From: Eutreptiella sp. 'Long Island Sound 2002' | Lineage: Eukaryota; Euglenozoa; Euglenophyceae; Eutreptiales; Eutreptiaceae | NCBI GenBank assembly: GCA_964036045.1 | Contig: OZ038378.1 | Span: forward strand, 182,368,944 to 182,432,943 | Direction of reading: 5' to 3' | DNA length: 64,000 bases | Shown here: positions 5,659 to 57,334 of the stretch, in pieces | Layout: every line of letters begins with the position of its first letter | How positions within the stretch are numbered: the stretch's first letter is position 1 | The notes under the pieces: model-generated | Databases searched by the model: none | Seen by the model: only the letters and a program-made list of their open reading frames with translations | Told to the model about the DNA's origin: nothing | Made by a program: the position numbers and the translations under genes

Positions 5659-5868
5659 CACCCCCCCCCCCCCTTGTATTGCCTTGCATGTGGCATGTTG
5701 CATGTGTCCATGGCTCCATGTAATTGGCAAATGTGACGACAAACCCATGTCTTATGTGGCCGCACTACATTTCGTACGTAATTAAAATTACGTACACCAT
5801 TATTACTGTCCCCACGCCTACTGTAGCTTGGACAAGGGCGTAGCTTATACCAAGGGGGGGGTACTGAC
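5659..5868. mobile_element. Poly-C/poly-G-ended foldback (MITE-like) element, copy A, with empty LINE target
   Basis: The segment begins with a C run followed by TTGTATTGCC and ends with GGGCGTAGCTTATACCAAGG and a G run, so the ends are inverted repeats of each other (C-run + TTGTAT against ATACCAA + G-run). The interior from TTGCATGTGGCATGTTGC to CTACTGTAGCTTGG is nearly the same as 37770-37916. The word CTACTGTAGCTTGG at about 5818-5832 continues directly into ACAAGGGCGTAGCTT. This is the uninterrupted form of the site occupied by the LINE array at 37.9-48.4 kb. The element encodes nothing. Confidence 0.65.
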
Positions 5869-35874: not shown

Positions 35875-37374
35875 AGCAGGGGAGCTGAGGTGGAGACCAC
35901 TGCCGCACGGCTAATGGGGGCTGATTGGCCTGAGGGGGCGTGGGGCCCGGTTTGTGGGCTAGGGCGGGGCCATGAGCAACGGATACTGGGCTCACACATG
36001 CCCCCGTGACACAGGCATATGGGCTAGGGCGGGGGGGGGGGGGGGGGTTATGCCGATTGGTTCAGTGGTGTTGCCCTTGATCAGGAGAAAACCTGCTGTG
36101 GCTGAGGCTGTGGAAGGGCCTTGCAGGCGCCGGGTTCTTGGAGCAGCGGTGTAAAAGATAAAATGGCTGTTGTAATGGACCAAAACGTTTGGGAGCAATG
36201 GATGGACACATGGTGGCCTAAGGAAGTGAACTTGTGGCACCGCGACCCTCAACTCCAAGTTCATGGCCAAGAAAGAAAGCTGAAGGCCCCCCACAGCCGC
36301 TTCCAACCCCTACAAAATTCACGAGGGGGAGGTTGTGTGGACGGGGGGGGGCAGAAGATGAACAGGTGCGCCCCAGCACGCATACGCTTTACAAGAGAAA
36401 CAGACACCATTGTGTGCAGCAAAGGCGAGGGTGTCCATTGCCACTGCACGCGACGGAGCAACAGAAAGTGAGGGAAACACGCAATATAGGAACCCTGGAC
36501 CCTTTCCCTGGAGCTGAACTGGACCTAAAGCTAATACCCATCCCTTTACATGTGTAGGCCCAACTTTTCCAATTTTCTATTTGTCCCTGAGTCTTGCTAA
36601 AGGACTTCGTGGTCGTGGGCAAGAAGCCCTCAAACAAATCCACACCAGTTCAAGAATTGATAGCAACTATCCAGAAGCCACCAAGAATCAAAAGGAACAA
36701 GTCAGAATCCACTAGGAATTTGCACTAACCACCAAGAAGCACCCAGGAAGTAACAGGAACCATCTAGAAAGCCTCTAGGAATCATCCTGAAAAATCTAGG
36801 AATTCTTGCCGTCGTGAGTTTGAGGGTATTCTCTCTGGAAACATCCAAAACATACCACACCATGCATGCACCATGCAACAACAGCCCCCATGTTGTAAAT
36901 TGAGTAACTTTTTTAACACTAAACGACATGGCCGCCAGTTGCAGTACATGAAACAGCCCACCCCATCCCCATCGCTCGCTCTGTGTCCAGGTATAGGCTT
37001 GGTGGTGCACAAAGGACACCGTCCAAAAATGGGTGTTCTCTTGCACCAGGTGGCACATGTGTGTAAGTCGTGGTCACCCATATCCCAGGAAACCAGAAAT
37101 CCAGTAGCACAGATGCATTCGGGGTGGTTCGCGTCTCACACGATTAGGGAGGGCAGGGAGTGGAGAAGGCGGGGGGGTGGGGGTGCAAAGGCAGTGCCAT
37201 CAGGAAGGCAATGCGCAGCATGCAGGGCATACCCTCTTCTTTGACAACGCCGGTGGGAAATCACTGGTTTGAAGACTTGTCATGTGTGTAACCTGCCAAA
37301 CCCCTGAGTACATTGGAATGGAGCATGATCCTTTCACGGGGGGTTTGCCCTGCGCGTGCCCCGCGCACTACCCC
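35875..37374. other. No gene recognised
   Basis: It contains a GGCTCACACATGCCCCCGTG block near 35990 that recurs near 58178, a 16-nt G run near 36030-36047, and phrases like CCACCAAGAA repeated loosely at 36670-36790. No protein domain is seen. Confidence 0.45.
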
Positions 37375-37455
37375 CCCCCCTTGTGTAAACTACGCCAATG
37401 TACGGAATTATTACGGTCCCTACGCCCACTGTAGCTTGGACAAGGGCGTAGCTTG
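37372..37455. mobile_element. Poly-C-ended foldback element, copy B, with empty LINE target
   Basis: A C run plus TTGTGTAAACTACGCC at the left faces ACAAGGGCGTAGCTT at the right, giving inverted ends around about 45 bp. It carries CACTGTAGCTTGGACAAGGG, the unoccupied form of the LINE insertion site (first base C/T variant). It is a shorter version of the copy at 5659-5868. Confidence 0.6.
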
Positions 37456-37769
37456 CGCGCAACACATACAACTACCGACACACACGTGTGCACACGCATG
37501 GTATGGGTGCACCTTGACCTCTGCCCACATTTCCAAGTGTATGCAAACGCAAGAAAGCCTTGGGAACATGAAAATTTCAGGTTCACACCCATGTTGGCAC
37601 AAGCAATGAAGAATGCGAAACCTACAAATGTTCGGCTTGGAAACCCTTCTTGCGATCATACACCACGCGGAACAATTGCACATGCTCACCACTTGAAGAT
37701 GCCTTTGGCTGAGGCTTAGGGGCTGCTTTGGGCTCGGGCAACTTCAAATTCTTGGAAATCAAATCGCCT

Positions 37770-37916
37770 TGCATGTGGCATGTTGCATGTGTTCATGGCT
37801 CCATGTAATTGGCAAAAGTGACGACAAATCCATGTCTCATGTGGCCGCACTACATTTCGTACGCAATTAAAATTACGTACACAATTATTACGGTCCCTAT
37901 GCCTACTGTAGCTTGG
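37770..37916. mobile_element. Left arm of host foldback element interrupted by the LINE array
   Basis: TTGCATGTGGCATGTTGCAT through GCCGCACTACATTTCGTACG to CTACTGTAGCTTGG matches 5685-5832 almost base for base. The match stops exactly after TTGG at 37916, where LINE sequence begins. The missing right arm (ACAAGGGCGTAGCTTATACA plus G run) is found 10.5 kb away at 48425-48458. Confidence 0.8.
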
Positions 37917-39775
37917 CCATAGAACAGTGGAAAGTTCAGCAATAGGTCCCCACCGACAGACCTATGCCCTCAATCGGCAAGTATCACGCGGCGGAGCCGC
38001 GGCAAACATTGTCCCATCTGTCCAGCGAAGCGCCACAGCTCTTCCTCGGATACGGCGCCAAAGGCGCCGCCACAGTTCTTCTGGATAGGTCAGGTCGCCC
38101 TCCCTACCCTCAGCAGGAACTGGGTTGAGCTGACAGGTACCTTTGAGACGAAAACAAAACCACCCCCCGTGTCGACCACTATGATGAACCCCCAGCGGCC
38201 TGTCCGCCGGGTTTCGAACCCACGACCCATGACGTGGGAGACAAGCGTGTTTCCGATATGCTACTGTCCGATGTGCTGTGTACCGGCCGTTCCAACCACC
38301 AAGTCATTCCCCCCCCTTTACCCCTACGGCTGCCGCTGCGGTTTGCACTTAGCGTAGACCTTCAAAACCCAGATCGACCGTGGAGGTCGACCCCCGGCAG
38401 CGTGTCCGCCGCCTTTGCCACCAAACGTGGCACGTCGTGGGAGCCACGCGCGTTTCAGGTATGCTCCTCCCCTATTGTATGCCACTGACCAACGTGCTGT
38501 GTACCAGCCGCGGAAACCACCAGGTCTCTCCCCCCCCCAACGGCCCCAGCGGTTGCTGCTGCGGTGTGCACTTAGTGCAGACCTTCCAGGCTCAAATGCC
38601 CGGTGGCGTGCCCGTCGACTTCGCCACCAACCGTGGCTTGGGAGCCACGCGTGTTTCTGGTATGCTCCTCTCCCGTTGTTGCCCGGTGCTCCAGAGGCGC
38701 CACTGGCGCCACTCCGTCTCAGGACTCGATCCCCCCCCGCCGCCTCTTCCTGCTCTCACTCACGTCCGTACTGAACCCATCACTGTCACTGTCCCACGCC
38801 CCCCGCAACCACGTGTCACTGACATCGGTACTGAATGACACGTCTTCGGAGCTGGACAGAAAAACGTCTTCGTCACGCGACATCGATGACGCGGTCGAAC
38901 TGCCGCCTGACGTCCCCCCAGAGTCCACCTCTGACCCCAGGTCCAAGTCGGACACTTCTGCCATGGGCTCCAGCCCCAAAGCATCCCACTCCGTGACTCA
39001 GCGTCGTTTAGACAGGGGCAGCAGGTTATAGGGGTGCAGTTCCCGGCCCTGCCCCGCTAGTTCGTCGGCCGCCTCATTATCGGCCACCCCGAGGTGCGAT
39101 GGCACCCACCGGACCTGTAGCTTGTCCCCCGCCTCCCCGCGCAGCCAATCAATGTGCTCCCACAAGTCTCTGTGCCCTACCTCCCCTGACGAGGTGCGCC
39201 ACCCGTGCCTCTTCCACTTGTCTGTCCACACCGTGATAGCCTTAAAAATGTATTCGGAATCCACCACCACCACCATTCGCTCCCCCGCCTCCCGACTGAG
39301 CATCACATGTAACACCCCTCGCAGCTCTCCCCTGCTGATACTCTGTCGCTCATGAGCTGGCGTGTGCGCCCGAAAATTACGACTACTGTCGTTTCCGAAC
39401 CAGACCCCGTACCCCGCTTGCATCCAACCCCGCACGCGTTTCGCCGAGCCATCCGTGTACACCACCACCCACCCCTCACCCGACATTCTCTCCAGCTCCG
39501 CCAACAAAGATCGCTTGTGACTACCCCACTTTTCCTCCTTTAACTTCAGCGGGTCTGGTCGCGCTGACGGCAGCTTGGCCGTCGTGGGGGCTTGGGGCGC
39601 CCTGTGGAACATTGTCTTATGGTCCGCCCAGCTGTGGAGCTGAGCTATCAAATGGCGCAAGTCGACTCGACTGCACGACATGTTGCGCTCCCCCCTCCAG
39701 ATTTCCAAAACACCCACCCAAACAGCAACGAACTTCTCCAGCGAAACCTGCCGATGCTGATACTTTACCTCGCAC
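37917..39775 (-). mobile_element. LINE-1a: 5'-truncated copy 1 of the site-specific LINE
   Basis: On the minus strand this copy starts within the zinc finger-RNase H linker of ORF2 (CGAGGTAAAGTATCAGC) and runs to the element's 3' end, CTGTTCTATGG. It is bounded by CTACTGTAGCTTGG at 37903-37916 and 39776-39789. Compared with copies 2 and 3 its 3' untranslated region is about 221 bp longer. This is because the block from GTGCTGTGTACC to GCAGACCTT occurs twice, in diverged form (about 38270-38370 and 38490-38590). There is no poly-A tail. Confidence 0.85.
38998..39770 (-). pseudogene. RNase H domain of LINE copy 1
   Basis: The frame reads through YTDGSAKRVRGW, SRGELRG, VVVDSEYIF and WVPSHLGVADNEAADELA, so all four acidic residues of RNase H are kept. 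It stops at a TGA after SKRR, where copies 2 and 3 have CGA (Arg). The acidic C-terminal tail is therefore lost. There is no reverse transcriptase in this copy and no start codon of its own. Confidence 0.8.
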
Positions 39776-39789
39776 CTACTGTAGCTTGG

Positions 39790-41427
39790 CCATAGAACAG
39801 TGGAAAGTTCAGCAATAGGTCCCCACCGACAGACCTATGCCCTCAATCAGCAAGTATCACGCGGCGGAGCCGCGGCAAACATTGTCCCATCTGTCCAGCG
39901 AAGCGCCACAGCTCTCCTTCGGATACGGCGCCAGAGGCGCCGCCACAGTTCTTCTGGATAGGTCAGGTCGCCCTCCCTACCCTCAGCAGGAACTGGGTTG
40001 AGCTGACAGGTACCTCCGAGACGAAAATAAAACCACCCCCCGTGTCGCCCACTATGATGAACCCCCAGCGACCTGTCCGCCGGGTTTCGAACCCACGACC
40101 CATGACGTGGGAGACAAGCGTGTTTCCGATATGCTACTGTCCGATGTGCTGTGTACCGGCCGCGGAAACCACCAGGTCTCTCCCCCCCCCAACGGCCCCA
40201 GCGGTTGCTGCTGCGGTGTGCACTTAGTGCAGACCTTCAAGGCGGAAATGCCCGGTGGCGTGCCCGTCGACCTCGCCACCGACCGTGGCTTGGGAGTCAC
40301 GCGTGTTTCTGGTATGCTCCTCCCCCGTTGTTGCCCTGTGCTCCAGAGGCGCCACTGGCGCCACTCCGTCTCAGGACTCGATCCCCCCCCGCCGCCTCTT
40401 CCTGCTCTCACTCACGTCCGTACTGAACCCATCACTGTCACTGTCCCACGTCCCCCGCAACCGCGTGTCACTGACATCCGTACTGAATGACATGTCTTCC
40501 GAGCTGGACAGAAAAACGTCTTCGTCGTCCGACGTTGACGATGCGGTCGAACTGCCGCTTGACGTCCCCCCAGAGTCCACCTCTGACCCCAGGTCCCGGT
40601 CGGACACTTCTGCCATGGGCTCCAGCCCCAATGCATCCCACTCCGTGACTCGGCGTCGTTTGGACAGGGGCAGCAGGTTATAGGGGTGCAGTTCCCGGCC
40701 CTGCCCCGCTAGTTCATCGGCTGCCTCATTACCGGCCACCCCGAGGTGCGATGGCACCCAGCGGACCTGTAACTTGTCCCCCGCCTCCCCGCGAAGCCAA
40801 TCAATGTGCTCCCACAAGTCTCTGTGCCCCACTTCCCCTGACGACGTGCGCCACCCGTGCCTCTTCCACTTGTCTGTGCACACTGTGATAGCCTTAAAAA
40901 TGTATTCGGAATCCACCACCACCACCATCCGCTCCCCCGCCTCCCGACTGAGCATCGCATGTAGCACCCCTCGCAGCTCTCCCCTGCTGATACTCTGTCG
41001 CTCATGAGCTGGCACGTGTGCCCGAAAATTACGATTACTGTTGTCCCCGAACCAAACCCCGTACCCCGCTTGCATCCAACCGCGGACGCGTTTCGCCGAG
41101 CCATCCGTATACACTACGACCCACCCCTCACCCGACATCCCCTCTAGCTCCGCCAACAAAGATCGTTTGTGGCTACCCCACTTTTCCTCCTTTAACTTCA
41201 GCGGGTCTGGTCGCGCTGACGGCAGCTTGGCCGTCGTGGGGGCTTGGGGCGCCCTGTGGAACATTGTCTTATGGTCCGCCCAGCTGTGGAGCTGAGCTAT
41301 CAAATGGCGCAAGTCGACTCGACTGCACGACATGTTGCGCTCCCCCCTCCAGATTTCCAAAACACCCACCCAAACAGCAACGAACTTCTCCAGCGAAACC
41401 TGCCGATGCTGATACTTTACCTCGCAC
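39790..41427 (-). mobile_element. LINE-1b: 5'-truncated copy 2
   Basis: It has the same 5' truncation point as copy 1 (CCTCGCAC joined to CTACTGTAGCTTGG on the plus strand) and the same 3' end. It is bounded by the 14-bp word at 39776-39789 and 41428-41441, for a period of 1652 bp. It matches copy 3 more closely than copy 1 does, sharing the 3' tail without the 221-bp duplication. Confidence 0.85.
40371..41420 (-). pseudogene. RNase H domain of LINE copy 2
   Basis: The frame is open through the RNase H motifs (YTDGSAKRVRGW, SRGELRG, VVVDSEYIF, GVAGNEAADELA). It continues into an acidic Ser/Asp/Glu tail ending RKRRRGGIES at 40371. This is the best view of the natural ORF2 C-terminus in this family. 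It lacks everything upstream, so it is a fragment. Confidence 0.8.
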
Positions 41428-41441
41428 CTACTGTAGCTTGG
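41428..41441. repeat. 14-bp target duplication CTACTGTAGCTTGG between LINE copies 2 and 3
   Basis: The word occurs at 37903-37916, 39776-39789, 41428-41441 and 48411-48424, that is, at both ends of the array and at each internal junction. Confidence 0.9.
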
Positions 41442-42119
41442 CCATAGAACAGTGGAAAGTTCAGCAATAGGTCCCCACCGACAGACCTATGCCCTCAATC
41501 AGCAAGTATCACGCGGCGGAGCCGCGGCAAACATTGTCCCATCTGTCCAGCGAAGCGCCACAGCTCTCCTTCGGATACGGCGCCAGAGGCGCCGCCACAG
41601 TTCTTCTGGATAGGTCAGGTCGCCCTCCCTACCCTCAGCAGGAACTGGGTTGAGCTGACAGGTACCTCCGAGACGAAAATAAAACCACCCCCCGTGTCGA
41701 CCACTATGATGAACCCCCAGCGACCTGTCCGCCGGGTTTCGAACCCACGACCCATGACGTGGGAGACAAGCGTGTTTCCGATATGCTACTGTCCGATGTG
41801 CTGTGTACCGGCCGCGGAAACCACCAGGTCTCTCCCCCCCCCAACGGCCCCAGCGGTTGCTGCTGCGGTGTGCACTTAGTGCAGACCTTCAAGGCGGAAA
41901 TGCCCGGTGGCGTGCCCGTCGACCTCGCCACCGACCGTGGCTTGGGAGTCACGCGTGTTTCTGGTATGCTCCTCCCCCGTTGTTGCCCTGTGCTCCAGAG
42001 GCGCCACTGGCGCCACTCCGTCTCAGGACTCGATCCCCCCCCGCCGCCTCTTCCTGCTCTCACTCACGTCCGTACTGAACCCATCACTGTCACTGTCCCA
42101 CGTCCCCCGCAACCGCGTG

Positions 42120-43749
42120 TCACTGACATCCGTACTGAATGACATGTCTTCCGAGCTGGACAGAAAAACGTCTTCGTCGTCCGACGTTGACGATGCGGTC
42201 GAACTGCCGCTTGACGTCCCCCCCAGAGTCCACCTCTGACCCCAGGTCCCGGTCGGACACTTCTGCCATGGGCTCCAGCCCCAATGCATCCCACTCCGTG
42301 ACTCGGCGTCGTTTGGACAGGGGCAGCAGGTTATAGGGGTGCAGTTCCCGGCCCTGCCCCGCTAGTTCATCGGCTGCCTCATTACCGGCCACCCCGAGGT
42401 GCGATGGCACCCAGCGGACCTGTAACTTGTCCCCCGCCTCCCCGCGCAGCCAATCAATGTGCTCCCACAAGTCTCTGTGCCCCACCTCCCCTGACGACGT
42501 GCGCCACCCGTGCCTCTTCCACTTGTCTGTCCACACTGTGATAGCCTTAAAAATGTATTCGGAATCCACCACCACCACCATCCGCTCCCCCGCCTCCCGA
42601 CTGAGCATCGCATGTAGCACCCCTCGCAGCTCTCCCCTGCTGATACTCTGTCGCTCATGAGCTGGCACGTGTGCCCGAAAATTACGATTACTGTTGTCCC
42701 CGAACCAAACCCCGTACCCCGCTTGCATCCAACCGCGGACGCGTTTCGCCGAGCCATCCGTATACACTACGACCCACCCCTCACCCGACATCCCCTCTAG
42801 CTCCGCCAACAAAGATCGTTTGTGGCTACCCCACTTTTCCTCCTTTAACTTCAGCGGGTCTGGTCGCGCTGACGGCAGCTTGGCCGTCGTGGGGGCTTGG
42901 GGCGCCCTGTGGAACATCGTCTTATGGTCCGCCCAGCTGTGGAGCTGTGCTATCAAATGGCGCAGATCGACTCGACTGCACGACATGTTGCGCTCCCCCC
43001 TCCAGATTTCCAACACACCCACCCAAACAGCTACAAACTCCTCCAACGAAACCTGCCGACGCTGATACTTTACCTCGCACCGCAGCTTCCACTGCGCACG
43101 CAGGCCTGCCCACAAAACGAGGCCCTGCGTTGTCTGCAGCGATAGCAGAGGTTCCTCCAGCAGAAGCCTGCTGGGCTCCACTGCTCCCCCCCCCCCCCTG
43201 CGCCAGGCCAAACGCCTTTCTCACCGTATCAAACATAAATGCCGAGAAGTAGCATCGCTTCAGCGTGTGCGCGTGGTCCTCCACCCGCCCGCACTGTGGA
43301 CACAGCTTACCCCCCAGCCGCTCCATTCGTGCACCAACTGGCAGCTTACGCCACAGAACCCTCCGTATAAAATCCAAATCCCATTTGGGGAGGTGTAGGC
43401 ACCCAAACACACGCCAAACTTCCTTAGGTTGACGGGCCTCGTGGCGCGTGCGCTGCTGCATGGCCAAAAGGGTCCGTCGCTTCGCCCACTGCAACGACCA
43501 ATTATCCACCGGGGGGGTCGCCGGGACCGCAAAATTGGGTTCGTACATCCCCACCACCCGCAAAGCCGATTCCTCATAGATGGCACGCCATGTGGGGGCC
43601 ACTGTGCCTAACAGCTGGGGTGGTATCTTGGACCCCGAGATGAGGTCACACCAGCGCAGCACCCCCCTCCGGTGCAGTGCCGGGCAGTAGTAGGTCAACC
43701 AAACCTTATTACGAAAAAACACGCAGTGCCAAACGCCCAAGGACCACAA
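42120..43749 (-). pseudogene. LINE ORF2 C-terminal part: zinc finger and RNase H (frame-shifted)
   Basis: One frame from 43749 continues ORF2 (LWSLGVWHCVFFRNKVW) and holds KLCPQCGRVEDHAHTLKRC, a C-x2-C...H...C finger. After the 13-nt C run at 43186-43198 the next frame carries RNase H: YTDGS, GELRG, VVVDSEYIF and PSHLGVAGNEAADELA, with all catalytic acids. A C7 tract at 42218-42224 (C6 in copy 2) throws off the acidic tail and gives a stop at 42120. The breaks lie in homopolymers, so true polymorphism, slippage and sequencing error cannot be told apart. Confidence 0.8.
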
Positions 43750-43750
43750 T

Positions 43751-46687
43751 TCATGCAGGGGGGGAGGAGCCGGTGCCCCCCCCCCCCCCCCGCCGAACCA
43801 CCGAGTACGCCTTCACTGTACCCTGCAAAAAGGTAGGCTTGGGCAGATAGGCTTGGCTGGCTAGCTGCAGATAGGGAAGAAACGCCGGTTCCAGCACCAA
43901 CCCCACGCGGTCGGCCCACCCCCGGAACGGCCGCGCATGTTGTTCTGCCAACGACGCTGGCCGTACCACTGCCTGTACAAACGTTTGGTTGTGTACCCAG
44001 GTCGCGTACAAACCCAAACCTACCTGCCCCAGACCCCCCTCCGCCGGAGGCAGAGCCAAGATCGGCATCGTGAGATGCCAGTTATTGATGTCTAGCGCCG
44101 CCATGTGGACCATGTTTAGTTGCGCCACCACATGCTCCGTCGGAGCATATGCCCGTGCAGTCAAGTAGACCACTGGGGCTACCCACGTAGCGAACAGATA
44201 AGCCCGCTCCTCCATTCCCAGTGGCAACGTGGCCAGGGTGCGCGCCCGCGCCAGCATTTTCGCGACCACGGGTGCGTATGCACCAGCCGTTGTCACATTA
44301 CCCAACTGGATGCCCAGGTACTTGAGTTGTTCCTTCACCGTCAGCCCTGCCAACGTGGCCGGCCGTGGGGCATCTGGGTCCGAGCACTTGACTACCGCAT
44401 ATGTTTTCGAAAAATTGACCCTCAGGCCAGAGAAATACCCAAACACCTGCAGGACATACAAAACCGCCCTCAGGTCGGCCACCTGTTGCGGCCCCCGCCC
44501 CGGCAGCGCCAACAAAATATCATCTGCGTATAGCAGCACCACCACAGTAACATGCAACCGTTTGAAATCAAAAATTAGTAGGACCGTTATCAGGTCAAAA
44601 AGCAAGGGGGACAGTGGGTCCCCCTGTCGGATGCCTGAGCGTGGGCTCAGCTCCACATCGGCCACAAAGCCCCTCCCCACGCAAAATAAAACGGGCCCCG
44701 CCGACACTGACATCAACAAACCAACGTACGCCAAGGGCAACCCCAGGTGGATCAGGGTGACCCGCAACAGGGTGAAAGTTACCGAGTCATAGGCTTTCTG
44801 AAAATCCACCGCCACCATGATCTGGTCTGGCAGCCGCTCCCACTCTGCCCTGGCGTAGATTACATGATCCAGCATCTTCCGCCCCGGCACGAAGCCTTTC
44901 TGACAGGGGGGGATCACCTGTGGCCACACGTCCGAGAGCTGCAACATCACCGTAGTGGTCACCCACTTTAGGCAGACCTGCTGGAGCGCAATGGGTCTCA
45001 TATCTTTGGGGTGTTCCGCCCCACAAAACTTTGGCAGGCACCGCATCAGAGAGACCGACCACTCCGCTGGCACCCCCCCCACCCTAAGGAAATCCTGCAT
45101 GGCTGACAATAACCGCGGAGCAAAGACAGATGGAAACGCCTGGTACAGCTCCGCTGGTATACCATCCTTACCCGGTGCCGATCCCCCTTTGAGCCGCTCG
45201 AGAGCCGCCAATACCACGTCTAGCGACAGTGGCTTCATAAGCAGAGGCCACGCCTGCAGGATTTTCGGGGGAATGGGTAGGGACCTTACATACCGCCAAC
45301 ACTCCTCTTCGGTTACTGCATTCCCCGCCATGACCCCCGCCCAATAGTCCCGCATAGCCTGCGCGATCGCCCGCACCCCGGTGTGTACCCCCCCCTGCGA
45401 GTCCCGAACTCGCGCCACGTGCTGTCGCTCTCGCAACTGTCGTACCAAGTTGTGGATGGTCCGCCGCCGATTTGCTTGACCTTGAACTCGCACCTCCCGC
45501 GGCTGTAACCGCCGCTTTAGCCTATCACACATATCCGATTTGAACATGGCCTCGCACTGGTTCGCCAGCAGGGACACCAACAGCCCGTACCCCTCCCCCA
45601 CCGTCCTCGGCGAATATCCCAGCTCCTCTAGATAGTCCAGTGCCCCCACCGCTAGTTTTACCGGTGTGCTCTCGCGTACCAGGCTATGCAGTTCCGTGTA
45701 ACCCGAGGTGGGGTGCGCTTGGCGCCACTCGCGAGCTTCCCGCTGCAGGAAACCCGTCACCCCCGCCCACCACTCCGTGGTCCCCAAGTCTCTGTCTGCC
45801 CACTGCTGTAGCCCCTCTCTCAGTCTACCCATAGCCACCTCATCGGACAAGGCCTCCACCGGGAAACGAAATCGCGCGGGGCACGTGGGCCCCTCCGGTG
45901 GGCCCAGCTGCACGACCACTGCTTTATGGTCAGAGGGCGTGGCCACCGGGTATGCTGACCGCACGAACGGCAAGACCACAGGCTGCACGCGGATGCGGTC
46001 GATACGCCGCTGCTTGGCCATGTGCGTGTAGCCCTTCACCGCCACCTCCCTGTTTTCACCATGCACGTACACCCACACATCATCCAGCTCTAGCTGCTGC
46101 AACACGTGTCCCTCCTTCTCCCTTGACCTCACCACCGGCGACACCTCCTTGGTGACCAAAGCCGAGTCTTCCCCCGGCACCATCACGCTGTTGTGATCTG
46201 CCAACGTCACCAGCGGCAAAGGAGGCAGCTCTGACAGCACGTCTCTCACTTCCCCCCACTGGTCTCGTCGCCGCGTCGGTTCACAAGAGAAATGACCCGA
46301 CAAGACTCGTATCGCGCCCCCGTCCACGGACGCCAGCTCCGTGATAAGCAGCCTCGTTGAGAGGGACATCGCTGACCGAACTGTCCACACCGAGGAGCGC
46401 CAAATGATCGCAGAGGAACCTTTGTCCTCCGTTGAGCTTTGCAAATTGAAGAGGCCACCAAAGCCCTGTTTTCGCAGCCACCACGACTGTGACTCCCTGG
46501 CCTCTGGTGTGAAGATGTGCGTCTCCTGAAGAGCCACCAAGTCCAATTTATGCCGATTGACCATGGATAGCACAGACTCTCGCCTGGGCGGCGTCCTGCG
46601 TGACTCTCGGGAGCGCCGCATCCAACCGTTCACATTCAACGTTGCCAGCGCCGTCCTGATGGACGGCCAGAGACCGGGCAACTGCAT
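43751..46687 (-). CDS. LINE ORF2: apurinic endonuclease plus reverse transcriptase
   Basis: The frame is 978 codons from ATG at 46687, two bases after the ORF1 TAA (TAA-GT-ATG), which suggests coupled re-initiation. The endonuclease (residues about 12-260) shows LNVNGW, LVALQETHIF, LADHNSV, RIDRIRV and PSDHKAVVV. The RT (about 480-760) shows LKGGSAPGKDGIPAELY, DMRPIALQQVCLKW, VDFQKAYDSV (627-636), GIRQGDPLSPLLF (685-697) and the catalytic LLYADDILLAL (718-728), then LKYLGIQLG. All RT catalytic residues are intact. The endonuclease has ADHN in place of the usual GDFN. The frame runs out in a 16-nt C run (43776-43791 on plus) where the natural ORF should continue. Confidence 0.88.
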   Translation of the reverse strand: MQLPGLWPSIRTALATLNVNGWMRRSRESRRTPPRRESVLSMVNRHKLDLVALQETHIFTPEARESQSWWLRKQGFGGLFNLQSSTEDKGSSAIIWRSSVWTVRSAMSLSTRLLITELASVDGGAIRVLSGHFSCEPTRRRDQWGEVRDVLSELPPLPLVTLADHNSVMVPGEDSALVTKEVSPVVRSREKEGHVLQQLELDDVWVYVHGENREVAVKGYTHMAKQRRIDRIRVQPVVLPFVRSAYPVATPSDHKAVVVQLGPPEGPTCPARFRFPVEALSDEVAMGRLREGLQQWADRDLGTTEWWAGVTGFLQREAREWRQAHPTSGYTELHSLVRESTPVKLAVGALDYLEELGYSPRTVGEGYGLLVSLLANQCEAMFKSDMCDRLKRRLQPREVRVQGQANRRRTIHNLVRQLRERQHVARVRDSQGGVHTGVRAIAQAMRDYWAGVMAGNAVTEEECWRYVRSLPIPPKILQAWPLLMKPLSLDVVLAALERLKGGSAPGKDGIPAELYQAFPSVFAPRLLSAMQDFLRVGGVPAEWSVSLMRCLPKFCGAEHPKDMRPIALQQVCLKWVTTTVMLQLSDVWPQVIPPCQKGFVPGRKMLDHVIYARAEWERLPDQIMVAVDFQKAYDSVTFTLLRVTLIHLGLPLAYVGLLMSVSAGPVLFCVGRGFVADVELSPRSGIRQGDPLSPLLFDLITVLLIFDFKRLHVTVVVLLYADDILLALPGRGPQQVADLRAVLYVLQVFGYFSGLRVNFSKTYAVVKCSDPDAPRPATLAGLTVKEQLKYLGIQLGNVTTAGAYAPVVAKMLARARTLATLPLGMEERAYLFATWVAPVVYLTARAYAPTEHVVAQLNMVHMAALDINNWHLTMPILALPPAEGGLGQVGLGLYATWVHNQTFVQAVVRPASLAEQHARPFRGWADRVGLVLEPAFLPYLQLASQAYLPKPTFLQGTVKAYSVVRRGGGGGTGSSPPA

Positions 46688-46689
46688 AC

Positions 46690-48306
46690 TTACTCAGCGC
46701 CCCGCTTCCGCTTCATAAACTTGAGCGCGGATGCCTCATTATCGCTCAGGTCCATCGGCTCCGCAGTGGGCTCTGGCCGCGTCGCCCCTCCCTTGCCCTT
46801 ACCCCTGCCCTTGCCCTTGCCTTGGATCTGTGCTTTCTTCGAGTTATACTCCTTGGAGCTTATGGGAACGATCAGCGTGTTGGAGCTGGACGCCTGCAAA
46901 ACCTTTCCCAGGAGCCCTGAGGTGGATGGGCCGGTCACCATCCAGGTCTTGGTGCGGATATCCCCAAGATGAAACCTACACTTATCCAAGACGAAGTCCT
47001 TCTGTCCTGTGCCCTGGGTCATCAGGACCTCCTGCAGCACGTCGGAGCGCCAATACGGTGGCACGTTAGTCAGGTATATCGACTCGCACGGGCCCCACGC
47101 CTCCGGGACCGAAGATGCCTGCGTGCTGGTCCCGATCGAGCCCGATAGCTTCTGACCTGTTTGCTCATCTAAAAGCTCCAAGCCCATCTCAGTGTACCAC
47201 TCTTCCTTTCTCGCATAGGCGTGCTCATACGCCTTTTTGGAAAGACCAACGCGAATACGCTTGGAATGGACGATATGCACTGCCACGTCCTTACCAGAGA
47301 ACAGCTCCCCCAACTCCCAAAAAGCCGCCAACACGTACGAGAAGAAAAGCTTCAGGTGTTTATCCCGAAAGGCTGCAGACATGCTGACCTCCAGACGGTG
47401 CGCTGATTTTTGCACCGCAGAACCAGTATACCAGGGCAGTGGCAGAATAGCAAACCTCGGGTAGCGGCCGAACTCCTCCACCAGACGGGACGCCTGCCCA
47501 TAGTCCAACTCCACGAACATGAACTTGCTCGCCTGGGCGTCCGACCCAGGCACGATATCGACCTCCTCGCGGGATTTGGAGATGGAGGCCAGCAACTGAT
47601 CCTCCCAGGACACGGCATACTGCAGAACCAGCACCTAGTACTTGATGTCCGGCTTCCGAAAAAGCACCCCATCCGCTGATTCCCCCGGCTGCCGCAGGTT
47701 GATCATCTTGTAGATGACGGATGCCGACTCAGACCTAGACTGATGCGACGTCCGAATAACCCAGGCATCATATGTCTCAGAGCGAGATATGGACCCCAGC
47801 AGCCTATCGACCTGCCCGATGCGGTCCGGCAGGAAAGGCAATTGATCTTTCAAACGCATCGCATTATTGAGGAAAGATGAGCTATCAACGGCCGATGATT
47901 TTGCATACAGAATGACGTCCAGCTGCGCCACCGTTGTCAGCAATTTCACGATCTTACGCATGTAATCAAGCAGATCATCCAACTGATCCGCAGCATATAC
48001 CAGAAGCAAATTCGGGGACGCACCCCAGAAGACCGCTCGCATTTGCTCCACAGAGGTAACCTCGTCAAGAATCGAAAACTTGGAAGAAATGCGCGCGTGG
48101 TCAGGGAAACCAGCAGAAACAAACATGTCGTTTTGAATGATGAAATCCGGGTTGCAAAGCATGGACATGGCCTTCAGCTGGGCTGAATCTGTCGCCGTCC
48201 AGACTGGATCGCCCGTCGTCTGGTGCGACTCTCGCACGTCGGCGGCACTGCGTTGGCCTTTCGACGACGTGGACATGGCGAAGCGATGGCAGCTGCTGTC
48301 AGCCAC
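46690..48306 (-). CDS. LINE ORF1 protein, interrupted by one in-frame TAG
   Basis: ATG at 48306 opens a frame of 223 codons to a TAG at 47635-47637. The same frame continues at once (VLVLQYAVSWEDQ) for 314 codons to TAA at 46690-46692. The sequence across the stop reads like one domain, so this is either a nonsense mutation or a readthrough codon. No CCHC knuckle is present. The C-terminal region has a lysine/glycine repeat (KAQIQGKGKGRGKGKGG) suited to nucleic-acid binding, and ends in KFMKRKRGAE. The middle shows IYLTNVPPYWRSDVLQEVL, which could be an RRM-like beta-alpha unit. As in other LINEs it would act as an RNA-binding particle protein. ORF2 starts 2 nt after its stop. Confidence 0.65.
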
Positions 48307-48410
48307 CCAAGTGGTAAGAGCGTGGGCTCTCTGGGTCTATTCCGCTTGTGGGCGCGGTCGACACACTCAGCAAAAAAGCGGAGCGCAGGACATCATACTA
48401 GCGCCCACCC

Positions 48411-48458
48411 CTACTGTAGCTTGGACAAGGGCGTAGCTTATACAAGGGGGGGGGGGGT
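48411..48458. mobile_element. Right arm of host foldback element beyond the LINE array
   Basis: CTACTGTAGCTTGG (target duplication) continues ACAAGGGCGTAGCTTATACA and a 12-nt G run, the same as the end of the uninterrupted copy at 5819-5868. With 37770-37916 it rebuilds one host element. Confidence 0.8.
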
Positions 48459-48465
48459 ACTTTTA

Positions 48466-54360: not shown

Positions 54361-57063
54361 CTACTTCCCGCCCAAATCCCCTGCCTCAAGGGATGGCAAA
54401 AACGTCCCGCCCCCCCTCACCTCCGGCGTAAACCAAACCAGCGAGAATCGGTCAGGACCGGCAAAGGGATTCGTCCAGTGCCTTAACCGCCATCCATCGA
54501 ACTCCAGCGGCCGGTACCGGACGTCGTGTGGCGCCCCCTCAACGACCAGCTCCCCCCCGACATAGTCCCCCAAACCGACGATCATTGACACGCTCTGCCC
54601 GAACCCCCTGCCGCTGTCGACGTGGGGCGTGAACTGCGCGTTGCAGTTGACGGCGCAGTGCGACGAGGCCGGTCGCTTTGAGACGGGAGGGGCCGTGTTC
54701 GCGCGGCCATCATCGCCCGCTCGCGGGAGCTCCTGTTCCGATAACGCCTCCTCCAACTCGAACACGGCCTCCACGAGCTCCGGGAAGAGCGCGTTGCCCC
54801 GCGGAAGGGGGGCTGCCCCCACGCGGTCCGAGTACACGCCGTCCTGAAACTTTGGATTCACCACCGTGAAGGACCCGGCACTCGATCCCGCTCCTGATCG
54901 CTCGTCGGCGGGCTGGGCACTGCGCCAGAAGCTGATCCCGGCGACGAGCGCACACGTCAGCGCGAGAGCGACTACCGGGAGGCCCGCGTGGTACCCGGCG
55001 GCGACGAACAGCCACGGCACGACGGCCCAGCGGCGCCGCCCTCCCTCTTCGCCTCCACCACCTCCGCCGCGGCGAATCACAGCGGAGCGGGCGGCGGAGG
55101 TCTCCGGCCACTCCGCCGACGCGACGATCCCCCGCAACAGCGCCAGCGTGCGCGCGTAGCGGTCGGGCGGACGGAGCTCCCCGTGCGAAGGCGGCGGGTA
55201 CCCCCGGGGGGCCTCCCGCTGCCGCCGCACGTCCGCGAGCGCCGCGCGGATACGCGGCGCGACGGTGTCACGCAGGGCCGCCAGCCACCGCTCCTCCTCG
55301 GCCACTGCGTCCCGGCGCGCCCTACGCCGCAGGAGCCGGTCCTGCGCCCACCCCACGGCCGCGGCGGGAGGGACGCCGCCGCCCCCGTCGCCGTCGTCCC
55401 CCGCGACACCGTCCTCGAAGATCCCGCGCCCGGCGGTGAGGGCCAGCTCGTCGAAGTGGAAGCGCGCCCCCGCGAGGTACAGTCGCCCCGCCGGCGCCGC
55501 CGCCGTCTCCACGACGTAGTCCGCGCGCGTGGCCGCGTCGAACACGTCGGGCGGCAGCCACCCGTGCGCGACCGCCAGCGCCGTGCCGACGACCCGCCGG
55601 ACCTGCTGCCGCACGAAGTCATCGCCCCGGAACTCCAGCACCGCGACGACCTCCGGACGCCCCGCCCCCGGCCCCGGCCCGTCGCCCCCGACGAACTGCG
55701 CGACGCGCGCGCGGTCCAGCACGCGCCACACAGGGCCGTGGCTCGGGCTCGCGTCCCCCCGCAGCGCGGGGTCCGCGAAGTTGTGCCACGCCCGCCGCTC
55801 TTTGTGCGCGAGGTCCCCGAAGCGCCCCGCGGCCGCCCGGACGCCGGCTGCGCGGATCGCGGCGGGTGGCAGCGTCGCGCTCTCGGCCGATTTCAGGGCG
55901 GCCTTGAGGCGGTGCAGAGCTGAGCCCGGCGGGGGCCGGCTCCGCGCCCGGTCCGCATGCCCCCCCGCGGCCGCTGACCGCTTCGCGACCGCCCGGTCCA
56001 GCCACCACCGCTCCAGCGCCGCGCCGTCCGGCAGCCACCGCAGCGGCAGGAGGTAGTGGTAGACACGCTGCGTGCAGCTGCGCTCCGCGTGCAGCCGCGT
56101 GTCCGGCGGGAGCCACTTGCACGAGAGCAGCTCCACGCAGACTGCGGGGGCCGTGGCGTTGTGCAGGTGGTCGCGGGCTAAGGACAGCAGCCGCTTCAGG
56201 AAGTGGGCCCGTGCCTCAGCGCCCCCCCGTCCGCTGTCGCCGCCCGGCGGAGCAGGCGCCAGGAAGCTCATCACCATCACGTCCCCCGCCGCGGCGGCGC
56301 CAATCTCTTGGGACAGCGCCCTGTGCCGCAGTCCGGCCGTTGTGGTCTGGGTGCTGCTCACGATCTCCACGTCAACGTCCAGCCCCCGGTCGCGTCGGAA
56401 GTGCGTCGCCAGCGCGGCCCCCACCGCCTCCCGCAGCCGGGCCCCTGCGAGTTCGGCCTCCGGCGTCCGGTGGTGCAGCGTGCCATCGACGGCGGGCGCG
56501 GAGTCGTAAGCGAAGAGGAAGGCCACGGTCTGGCGCACGGCCGCCGGGCGCAGGGCGGCGGACCTGCCAGGGTTGGCGAGGGGGGCACAGCCAGGGTCGG
56601 ACCGCAGGTGACGAAAAAGTGCATTCCGGGACTCAAAGACCACCCCGCAGAACCCGCACTGGTGTGTCGTCGCCCGGTCCCGCCCCGTGTGCTCGGGCCC
56701 CACCTCCTCCACGGGCCCGGGGGCAGTGGCACTGGCGCGGCGCAGCGTGGGTGGGTGTGTGGAAGGGGAGGCCCATGAGGGGGCCAGGGTGGAGTGGAGG
56801 GAGGGGCGGAATGCAGGGGATGACTGCAGACCGCCCGCAGCCGCGAACAGCAGTGCCAACGACATCCAGACCATGGTAAGCCGATCCAGGGGGCCTCGGC
56901 AGGTCATCATACCGGGCATGACCTCAACAGATCGGAGCCATGCAACAATAGTGGACATGAACCCTGCAGCAGCAGTGCGCCTTGCAGCTGGTACTTTGCA
57001 CAAACCGAGTGATTCGACACCAAAGCCTCCAGACAGCCATCGCCCTGTGGCATCCTGATGCAC
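54361..57063 (-). CDS. Fusion: C2HC finger / TruA-like pseudouridine synthase (no catalytic Asp) / membrane segment / 2OG-Fe(II) oxygenase
   Basis: The frame is 900 codons, with GC far above its surroundings. ATG at 57063 is possible; Met64 (near 56874) starts a hydrophobic leader (MVWMSLALLFAAAGGL) and is a plausible true start. C136/C139/H152/C159 form a C2HC finger. Residues about 175-545 are TruA-like: RVYHYLLPL (333-341), WHNFADP (426-432), FRGDDFVRQQVRRVVG (478-493). The catalytic RTDxGVHA box reads TTTAGLRH (239-246), Asp replaced by Thr, so pseudouridylation is unlikely. Two hydrophobic stretches at about 680-712 could span a membrane. Residues 805-880 are a 2OG oxygenase of prolyl-hydroxylase type: HVD (814-816), GGELVVEG (836-843), distal RHWTNPF (His862) and RFSLVW (Arg872). 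The Fe triad and 2OG Arg are all present. Target unknown; one protein or mis-joined exons cannot be settled here. Confidence 0.75.
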   Translation of the reverse strand: MHQDATGRWLSGGFGVESLGLCKVPAARRTAAAGFMSTIVAWLRSVEVMPGMMTCRGPLDRLTMVWMSLALLFAAAGGLQSSPAFRPSLHSTLAPSWASPSTHPPTLRRASATAPGPVEEVGPEHTGRDRATTHQCGFCGVVFESRNALFRHLRSDPGCAPLANPGRSAALRPAAVRQTVAFLFAYDSAPAVDGTLHHRTPEAELAGARLREAVGAALATHFRRDRGLDVDVEIVSSTQTTTAGLRHRALSQEIGAAAAGDVMVMSFLAPAPPGGDSGRGGAEARAHFLKRLLSLARDHLHNATAPAVCVELLSCKWLPPDTRLHAERSCTQRVYHYLLPLRWLPDGAALERWWLDRAVAKRSAAAGGHADRARSRPPPGSALHRLKAALKSAESATLPPAAIRAAGVRAAAGRFGDLAHKERRAWHNFADPALRGDASPSHGPVWRVLDRARVAQFVGGDGPGPGAGRPEVVAVLEFRGDDFVRQQVRRVVGTALAVAHGWLPPDVFDAATRADYVVETAAAPAGRLYLAGARFHFDELALTAGRGIFEDGVAGDDGDGGGGVPPAAAVGWAQDRLLRRRARRDAVAEEERWLAALRDTVAPRIRAALADVRRQREAPRGYPPPSHGELRPPDRYARTLALLRGIVASAEWPETSAARSAVIRRGGGGGGEEGGRRRWAVVPWLFVAAGYHAGLPVVALALTCALVAGISFWRSAQPADERSGAGSSAGSFTVVNPKFQDGVYSDRVGAAPLPRGNALFPELVEAVFELEEALSEQELPRAGDDGRANTAPPVSKRPASSHCAVNCNAQFTPHVDSGRGFGQSVSMIVGLGDYVGGELVVEGAPHDVRYRPLEFDGWRLRHWTNPFAGPDRFSLVWFTPEVRGGGTFLPSLEAGDLGGK

Positions 57064-57334
57064 TCCTTTTGACGCTTACCTTTTGTGGGGAGACATGGGT
57101 TGTTTTGTTGTGCGGACAGGGGCGTTCCTGCACAGCAAGGGCACATCGCGGGCACAGCGCCCATTAGGAAGTCAGGTTTCCTGTGATCCACCCGGCACTA
57201 GGGACGCATACGTCCACAGGGCAAAAATAGCAGATTTAGCCAGCGATCCGGCATTTTCATTGTGAAACATAGCTTTATCTGAGTTCTTGGACTGAGTAAG
57301 AATCTGAGCAGTCCTGTGTACGGGAACACAGTGG
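57064..57334. other. No gene; upstream region of the fusion gene
   Basis: This is DNA 5' of the minus-strand ATG. Composition falls back to about 50% GC. No TATA box or initiator could be supported. Confidence 0.4.

Follow-up and report, generated by a model that had tools for sequence, protein, structure and literature searches.

How does a head-to-tail array of retrotransposons come to occupy one short site within another mobile element? The question is raised by a stretch of 64,000 nucleotides of Eutreptiella sp. 'Long Island Sound 2002' (assembly GCA_964036045.1, contig OZ038378.1, positions 182,368,944 to 182,432,943; the whole stretch is referred to as the window), where three units of a long interspersed nuclear element (LINE) interrupt a miniature inverted-repeat transposable element (MITE). 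We consider, with a probability of about 0.9, that the LINE is a sequence-specific non-long-terminal-repeat (non-LTR) retrotransposon targeting CCCTTGT^CCAAGC in inverted-repeat ends, above all those of one MITE family (MITE-1), where it would be inserted by target-primed reverse transcription and stack on the 5' side.

On the plus strand, the locus is organized as TA, the left part of the MITE, three minus-strand LINE units split by the same 15 bp, the final 33 bp of the MITE and TA again, as follows (a strand is given where one applies).

37369..37370: TA target duplication, left of the host MITE
37371..37916, plus strand: host MITE, left part, with poly-C and inverted repeat, an empty left subterminal site (37426-37439) and the right subterminal site up to 37916
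37902..37916: target-site duplication beside the 3' end of unit A; in the LINE sense, CCAAGCTACAGTAGG
37917..39775, minus strand: LINE unit A, 5' truncated, with extra 3' untranslated region (UTR) sequence not found in B or C
39775..39789: target-site copy between A and B (base 39775 assignable to either)
39790..41427, minus strand: LINE unit B, with the 5' truncation point of A; a mosaic, its 5' part as A and the rest as C
41427..41441: target-site copy between B and C (base 41427 assignable to either)
41442..48410, minus strand: LINE unit C, the long unit, about 6969 bp, with interrupted frames
48410..48424: target-site copy at the array's 5' junction; the ACAAGGG that follows makes it a complete target sequence
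48425..48457, plus strand: host MITE, right end, with inverted repeat and poly-G, carrying the second motif register GTAGCTTAT^ACAAGGG
48458..48459: TA target duplication, right of the MITE

The sequence-only reading of the window had claimed that a 14-mer bounds each of the three LINE copies, and CTACTGTAGCTTGG is indeed exact at each position that it gave, that is, at 37903, 39776, 41428 and 48411; it is also exact at 5818 and has one mismatch at 37426. Six matches with no more than two mismatches are present in the window, against 0.34 expected from 100 shuffles. The common block can also be read as 15 bp, CCTACTGTAGCTTGG, at 37902, 39775, 41427 and 48410, with an empty copy at 5817. The same reading had the LINE 3' end abutting TTGG without a tail, and this too holds: in all three units the end, ...CACTGTTCTATGG, adjoins CCAAGC on the plus strand, and no poly-A or A run, as a strict definition of the L1 clade would demand, was found there in the three window units.

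The position of insertion was then assessed genome-wide, in the whole assembly (2.28 Gb, 2205 contigs). The exact 20-mer of the LINE 3' end occurs 492 times (control 0), and the 3' flanks of 100 listed ends (loci L070-L165) were tabulated, a check that the earlier reading had proposed for all copies. The bases following the LINE are CCAAG in 97 of them, CCAAGC in 88 and CCAAGCTACAGTAG in 39; the three ends without CCAAG read CCAAAC, CCTAGC and CCATGG, the CCTAGC end being located in MITE-1, at the outer motif copy. A MITE-1 flank, defined by a cut of our own (a score of at least 20 over 40 bases), is present in 56 cases, and 91 of the 100 flanks are distinct, so that independent copies share one exact target position. 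Random flanks are ruled out by the 97 ends at CCAAG. The unrelated flanks that might have overturned the first reading are not what was found, since the 44 ends outside the MITE family by flank score nearly all carry, nonetheless, the same core motif.

To detect target duplications independently of the motif, the 3' flank was compared with the sequence around the 5' limit of each unit. Of 77 ends, 49 gave a duplication, with a mode of 15 bp and 42 of the 49 within 12-17 bp, i.e., a fixed size class. The bases preceding the duplication are GT in 44 of these 49 and CTTGT in 36. Outside MITE-1 the figures are 16/19 for GT and 9/19 for CTTGT, several of these cases lying in a poly-C end (for example, CCCCCTTTGT or CCCCCCTCGT); since the same bases precede duplications outside MITE-1, the target is not confined to a single 14-bp site in one repeat. 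Several 3' flanks extend into a second, poly-G-bearing inverted repeat, with TA often coming next. Moreover, 14 of the 100 ends have another copy of the core 16 or 17 bp inward, and none has one at any other step from 12 to 23; the LINE is found at the outer of two motif copies 17 bp apart both in MITE-1 (L146, L150) and in another family (L111, L118, L129, L139, L147, L156, L157, L160). Judged from these sequences, the target is CCCTTGT^CCAAGC, a core of about 12 bp that several poly-C inverted-repeat families carry at their ends, some of them twice. Of the original claim of insertion at one exact 14-bp site in one repeat, the fixed position stands, while the core is somewhat shorter and belongs to several repeat families.

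Two other explanations of these junctions have to be weighed. According to the first one, CCAAG is the 3' terminus of the LINE itself and the target is otherwise weakly specified, as the 97 ends followed by CCAAG might suggest. However, LINE-free MITE copies read ...GTCCAAGCTACAG, the LINE 3' end is away from the 14-mer in 89 of 90 distinct contexts, and a second CCAAG... copy lies upstream of 5'-truncated units, with CTTGT before it in 36 of 49, which leaves this explanation with hardly any probability. The second one invokes a weak, L1-like intrinsic preference, the enrichment in MITEs reflecting only their copy number and open chromatin; the 44 copies outside MITE-1 and an apparent concentration of LINE ends and 14-mers towards contig ends speak in its favor. 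Nevertheless, 97 of 100 ends fall at one exact base of a five-base core, with CTTGT before it, also outside MITE-1, and the ends displaced by 16-17 bp in the same repeat type fall at the second motif copy, so that a weak preference appears very improbable.

As for the distribution itself, the listed LINE ends (contigs C1-C4), and the 14-mers on contig C1, look concentrated near the ends of very long contigs; on C1, none of 20 listed LINE ends lies between 17 and 142 Mb.

The repeat hosting the array was characterized further. The outer flanks of the array are two parts of one inverted-repeat element with TA on both sides (37369-37370 and 48458-48459), holding the site twice, in left and right subterminal position: the copy at 37426-37439 (one mismatch) is empty, whereas that at 37902-37916/48410-48424 is filled. 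A further copy is located elsewhere in the window.

5661..5861, plus strand: shorter uninterrupted MITE copy with an empty site at 5817-5831; the bases to its left are CA, not TA

The flanks had been described as halves of a foldback element with uninterrupted versions at 5.8 and 37.4 kb. The halves and the 5.8-kb version are confirmed, but the site at 37.4 kb belongs to the interrupted element itself, and MITE is the better name. The terminal inverted repeats read CCCC..TTGTATAAGC...GCTTATACAA..GGGG, and the 14 paired copies, whose ends are 105-1060 bp apart, are bordered by TA at both ends in nine cases and at one end in five. This TA is the observation that bears on a possible place of the repeat in the Tc1/mariner superfamily, which pairs a TA target with a DDE transposase in the autonomous partner. 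Genome-wide, 6541 occurrences of the 14-mer were counted (1 for the reversed control). A short interspersed nuclear element (SINE) behind the 14-mer pairs spaced 259-295 bp was considered and rejected, these pairs being the two subterminal sites, left and right, of a single MITE. Among 90 distinct contexts of 46 bases each, one is filled by the LINE, three are filled slightly further on by a sister LINE (see below) and 86 are without such a junction; these contexts come from the first 100 listed 14-mers, all on contig C1 and partly picked for long spacings, and as a non-random set they give no estimate of occupancy.

The arrangement of motif and junctions suggests how such arrays might be formed. 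The endonuclease is predicted to nick the GCTTGG^ACAAGGG strand, target-primed reverse transcription would copy the RNA starting from the CTTGG 3' end of that strand, and a second cut about 15 bp away would give rise to the target duplication. After insertion, the 5' junction would again read CCCTTGT-CCAAGC..., while the 3' junction would be devoid of CCCTTGT. Since the complete motif would be restored only at the 5' junction, further copies would enter on that side and head-to-tail arrays should grow there, which would explain the stacking. Both the window, where C lies upstream of A, and a second array (locus L121, with units of roughly 40 and 60 bp and different truncations) are compatible with growth at the 5' side.

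The history of the window array can be traced by comparing its units. The 5' truncations of A (1859 bp) and B (1638 bp) fall on the same base, and C is the long unit. A and C share 95.5% identity over 1638 aligned positions, B and C 99.1%. In the three-way alignment the 10 C-specific sites all lie at positions 20-162 and the 63 A-specific sites all at 255-1800, with four sites private to B. From this pattern, unit B is a recombinant that begins as A and continues as C, a mosaic of the kind that one unequal crossover between A and C yields. With a common truncation point in A and B, and B being recombinant, the three units do not represent three insertions, and three independent insertions in the window are rejected. 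The array is best read as the outcome of two same-site insertions and one unequal crossover: A would have been inserted first, C later and upstream, and the crossover between them would have generated B. The three head-to-tail copies first reported are thus present, but three insertions are not needed to account for them.

These data bear on a third explanation, i.e., that a single ordinary LINE insertion into a MITE was followed by segmental or tandem duplication, the common flank being a copied target duplication. The truncation point shared by A and the recombinant B, the flanks common to L080/L109/L110, L083/L084 and L093/L095 (among the first 50 copies) and the fact that 91 rather than all 100 flanks are distinct are in line with it. 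On the other side, the 91 distinct flanks leave no single duplication behind the copies, whose target duplications, truncation points and host repeats differ; the L121 array shows two truncation points; and A differs from C at 4.5% of aligned positions and has extra 3' UTR sequence. One segmental duplication, which would have contradicted the first reading, is ruled out by those 91 flanks, and duplication is refuted as the whole explanation (its probability as such is very small), although it is true for unit B.

At locus L122, two copies of one LINE insertion lie 2375 bp apart with identical flanks, probably through a local duplication.

Unit C retains the coding regions of the LINE, given here with their open reading frames (ORFs) and, where present, the apurinic/apyrimidinic-endonuclease-type (APE-type) domain.

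46690..48336, minus strand: ORF1 region (open reading frame), with one in-frame TAG at 47635-47637
43751..46693, minus strand: ORF2, with APE-type endonuclease (about residues 12-265) and reverse transcriptase (562-797)
42922..43812, minus strand: continuation of ORF2 in another frame, after a frame change at a G run; weak zf-RVT match below its cut-off
42120..43220, minus strand: ORF2, RNase H region, in yet another frame (PF00075, E 2e-26)

No Pfam family scored above the cut-off for ORF1. The frame changes of ORF2 in unit C lie near G runs, and assembly error, mutation and frameshifting are all candidates. The endonuclease precedes the reverse transcriptase, as in target-specific APE-type non-LTR retrotransposons. 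Its model has the APE/L1 fold, human L1 tied with AP endonucleases being the best solved structures and the TRAS1 endonuclease ranking 25th among the fold matches; compared by sequence with solved structures, the endonuclease alone gave no meaningful match. The best solved match of the reverse transcriptase is the human L1 ORF2 protein. Together with the 100 junctions and the 49 target duplications, this fold upholds the initial proposal of a sequence-specific APE-type LINE entering a small inverted-repeat transposon.

The sister LINE is about 87% like the LINE in its 3' part, and its exact 3' ends number 213 genome-wide (control 0). It joins at ATAAGCTAC in L017 (two copies, 710-863 and from 2347 on), L024 and L037, and in the few copies examined its site is CCCTTGT^ATAAGC, at a distance of 17 bp from that of the LINE; in L017, AAGGGYGTAGCTTAT flanks one sister copy on both sides, forming a 15-bp duplication with one mismatch. 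A step of 17 bp separates the copies of the motif GTAGCTTNNACAAGGG in the end of the MITE, and each of the two LINEs uses its own register; since the three loci were all chosen for their MITE 14-mer, this use of registers is a lead rather than a test. Seven same-strand neighbors 110-658 bp apart, noticed by eye among 100 listed ends, suggest that the sister LINE also occurs in arrays. Tentatively, and at less than even odds, the whole lineage might exploit cut-and-paste transposons by way of their ends: the LINE endonuclease would read the CCCTTGT of inverted repeats (at a 16-17 bp step, in several families), sister LINEs would split the motif copies between them (GTAGCTTGG^ACAAGGG and GTAGCTTAT^ACAAGGG), and target choice would track the transposon-end sequence, each MITE burst building new landing sites.

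Among known systems, Tx1L and Tx2L of Xenopus laevis are APE-type LINEs inside the DNA transposon-like Tx1D and Tx2D. They resemble the LINE described here in their APE endonuclease, in a fixed site within a DNA-transposon family and in the existence of related LINEs with related but different sites; the present LINE differs in having its motif at the ends of several MITE families, an RNase H in ORF2 and head-to-tail arrays. With 56 of 100 ends in MITE-1, Tx1L in Tx1D is the nearest habit, a likeness that is no proof of descent. The site-specific LINEs of the R1 clade, R1 in ribosomal DNA (rDNA) and TRAS and SART in telomeric repeats, also combine an APE endonuclease with a fixed target, which here, however, is the end of a mobile element and neither rDNA nor telomere. 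Human L1, the best solved match for the reverse transcriptase and, tied, for the endonuclease fold, targets TTTT/AA loosely and ends in a poly-A tail, features that the present LINE does not show.

Target-specific APE LINEs occur in the R1 and Tx1 clades (PMC4640811), and the reported LINE targets include other mobile elements (PMC8869645). The former source also describes Utopia and Keno as two different LINEs on the same site in the U2 small nuclear RNA (snRNA) gene, with tandem insertion in one Utopia family and a restriction-like endonuclease in Utopia (PMC4640811). The fixed site, the tandem insertion (in that one family) and the sharing of one site by two LINEs are features in common with the present case; the snRNA gene target and, in Utopia, the restriction-like endonuclease are not. 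No description of a LINE aimed at MITE ends was found in literature titles and abstract openings, which is weak evidence of absence since most subscription papers were not covered. APE LINEs with fixed sites, one of them aimed at a DNA transposon, are already known.

Such a retrotransposon finds its potential landing sites, thousands in number, in another parasite and avoids the low target number of snRNA-specific LINEs. Protection of host genes by insertion into MITEs, suggested in the sequence-only reading, is plausible. Two sister LINEs with different motif registers would allow a change in endonuclease specificity to be traced at the level of single residues, and an APE-type LINE whose natural specificity extends over about 12 bp is interesting with regard to targeted insertion.

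Elsewhere in the window, the minus strand carries the remains of another LINE at 18250-19605 (zf-RVT, E 1.1e-5, and a weak RVT_1 match, both below the cut-off). An open frame of 635 amino acids with a double-stranded RNA binding motif (E 2.3e-7) is located at 19960-21864, and a long GC-rich open frame of 904 amino acids, which matches tRNA pseudouridine synthase at a borderline level and a zinc finger weakly, at 54364-57075.
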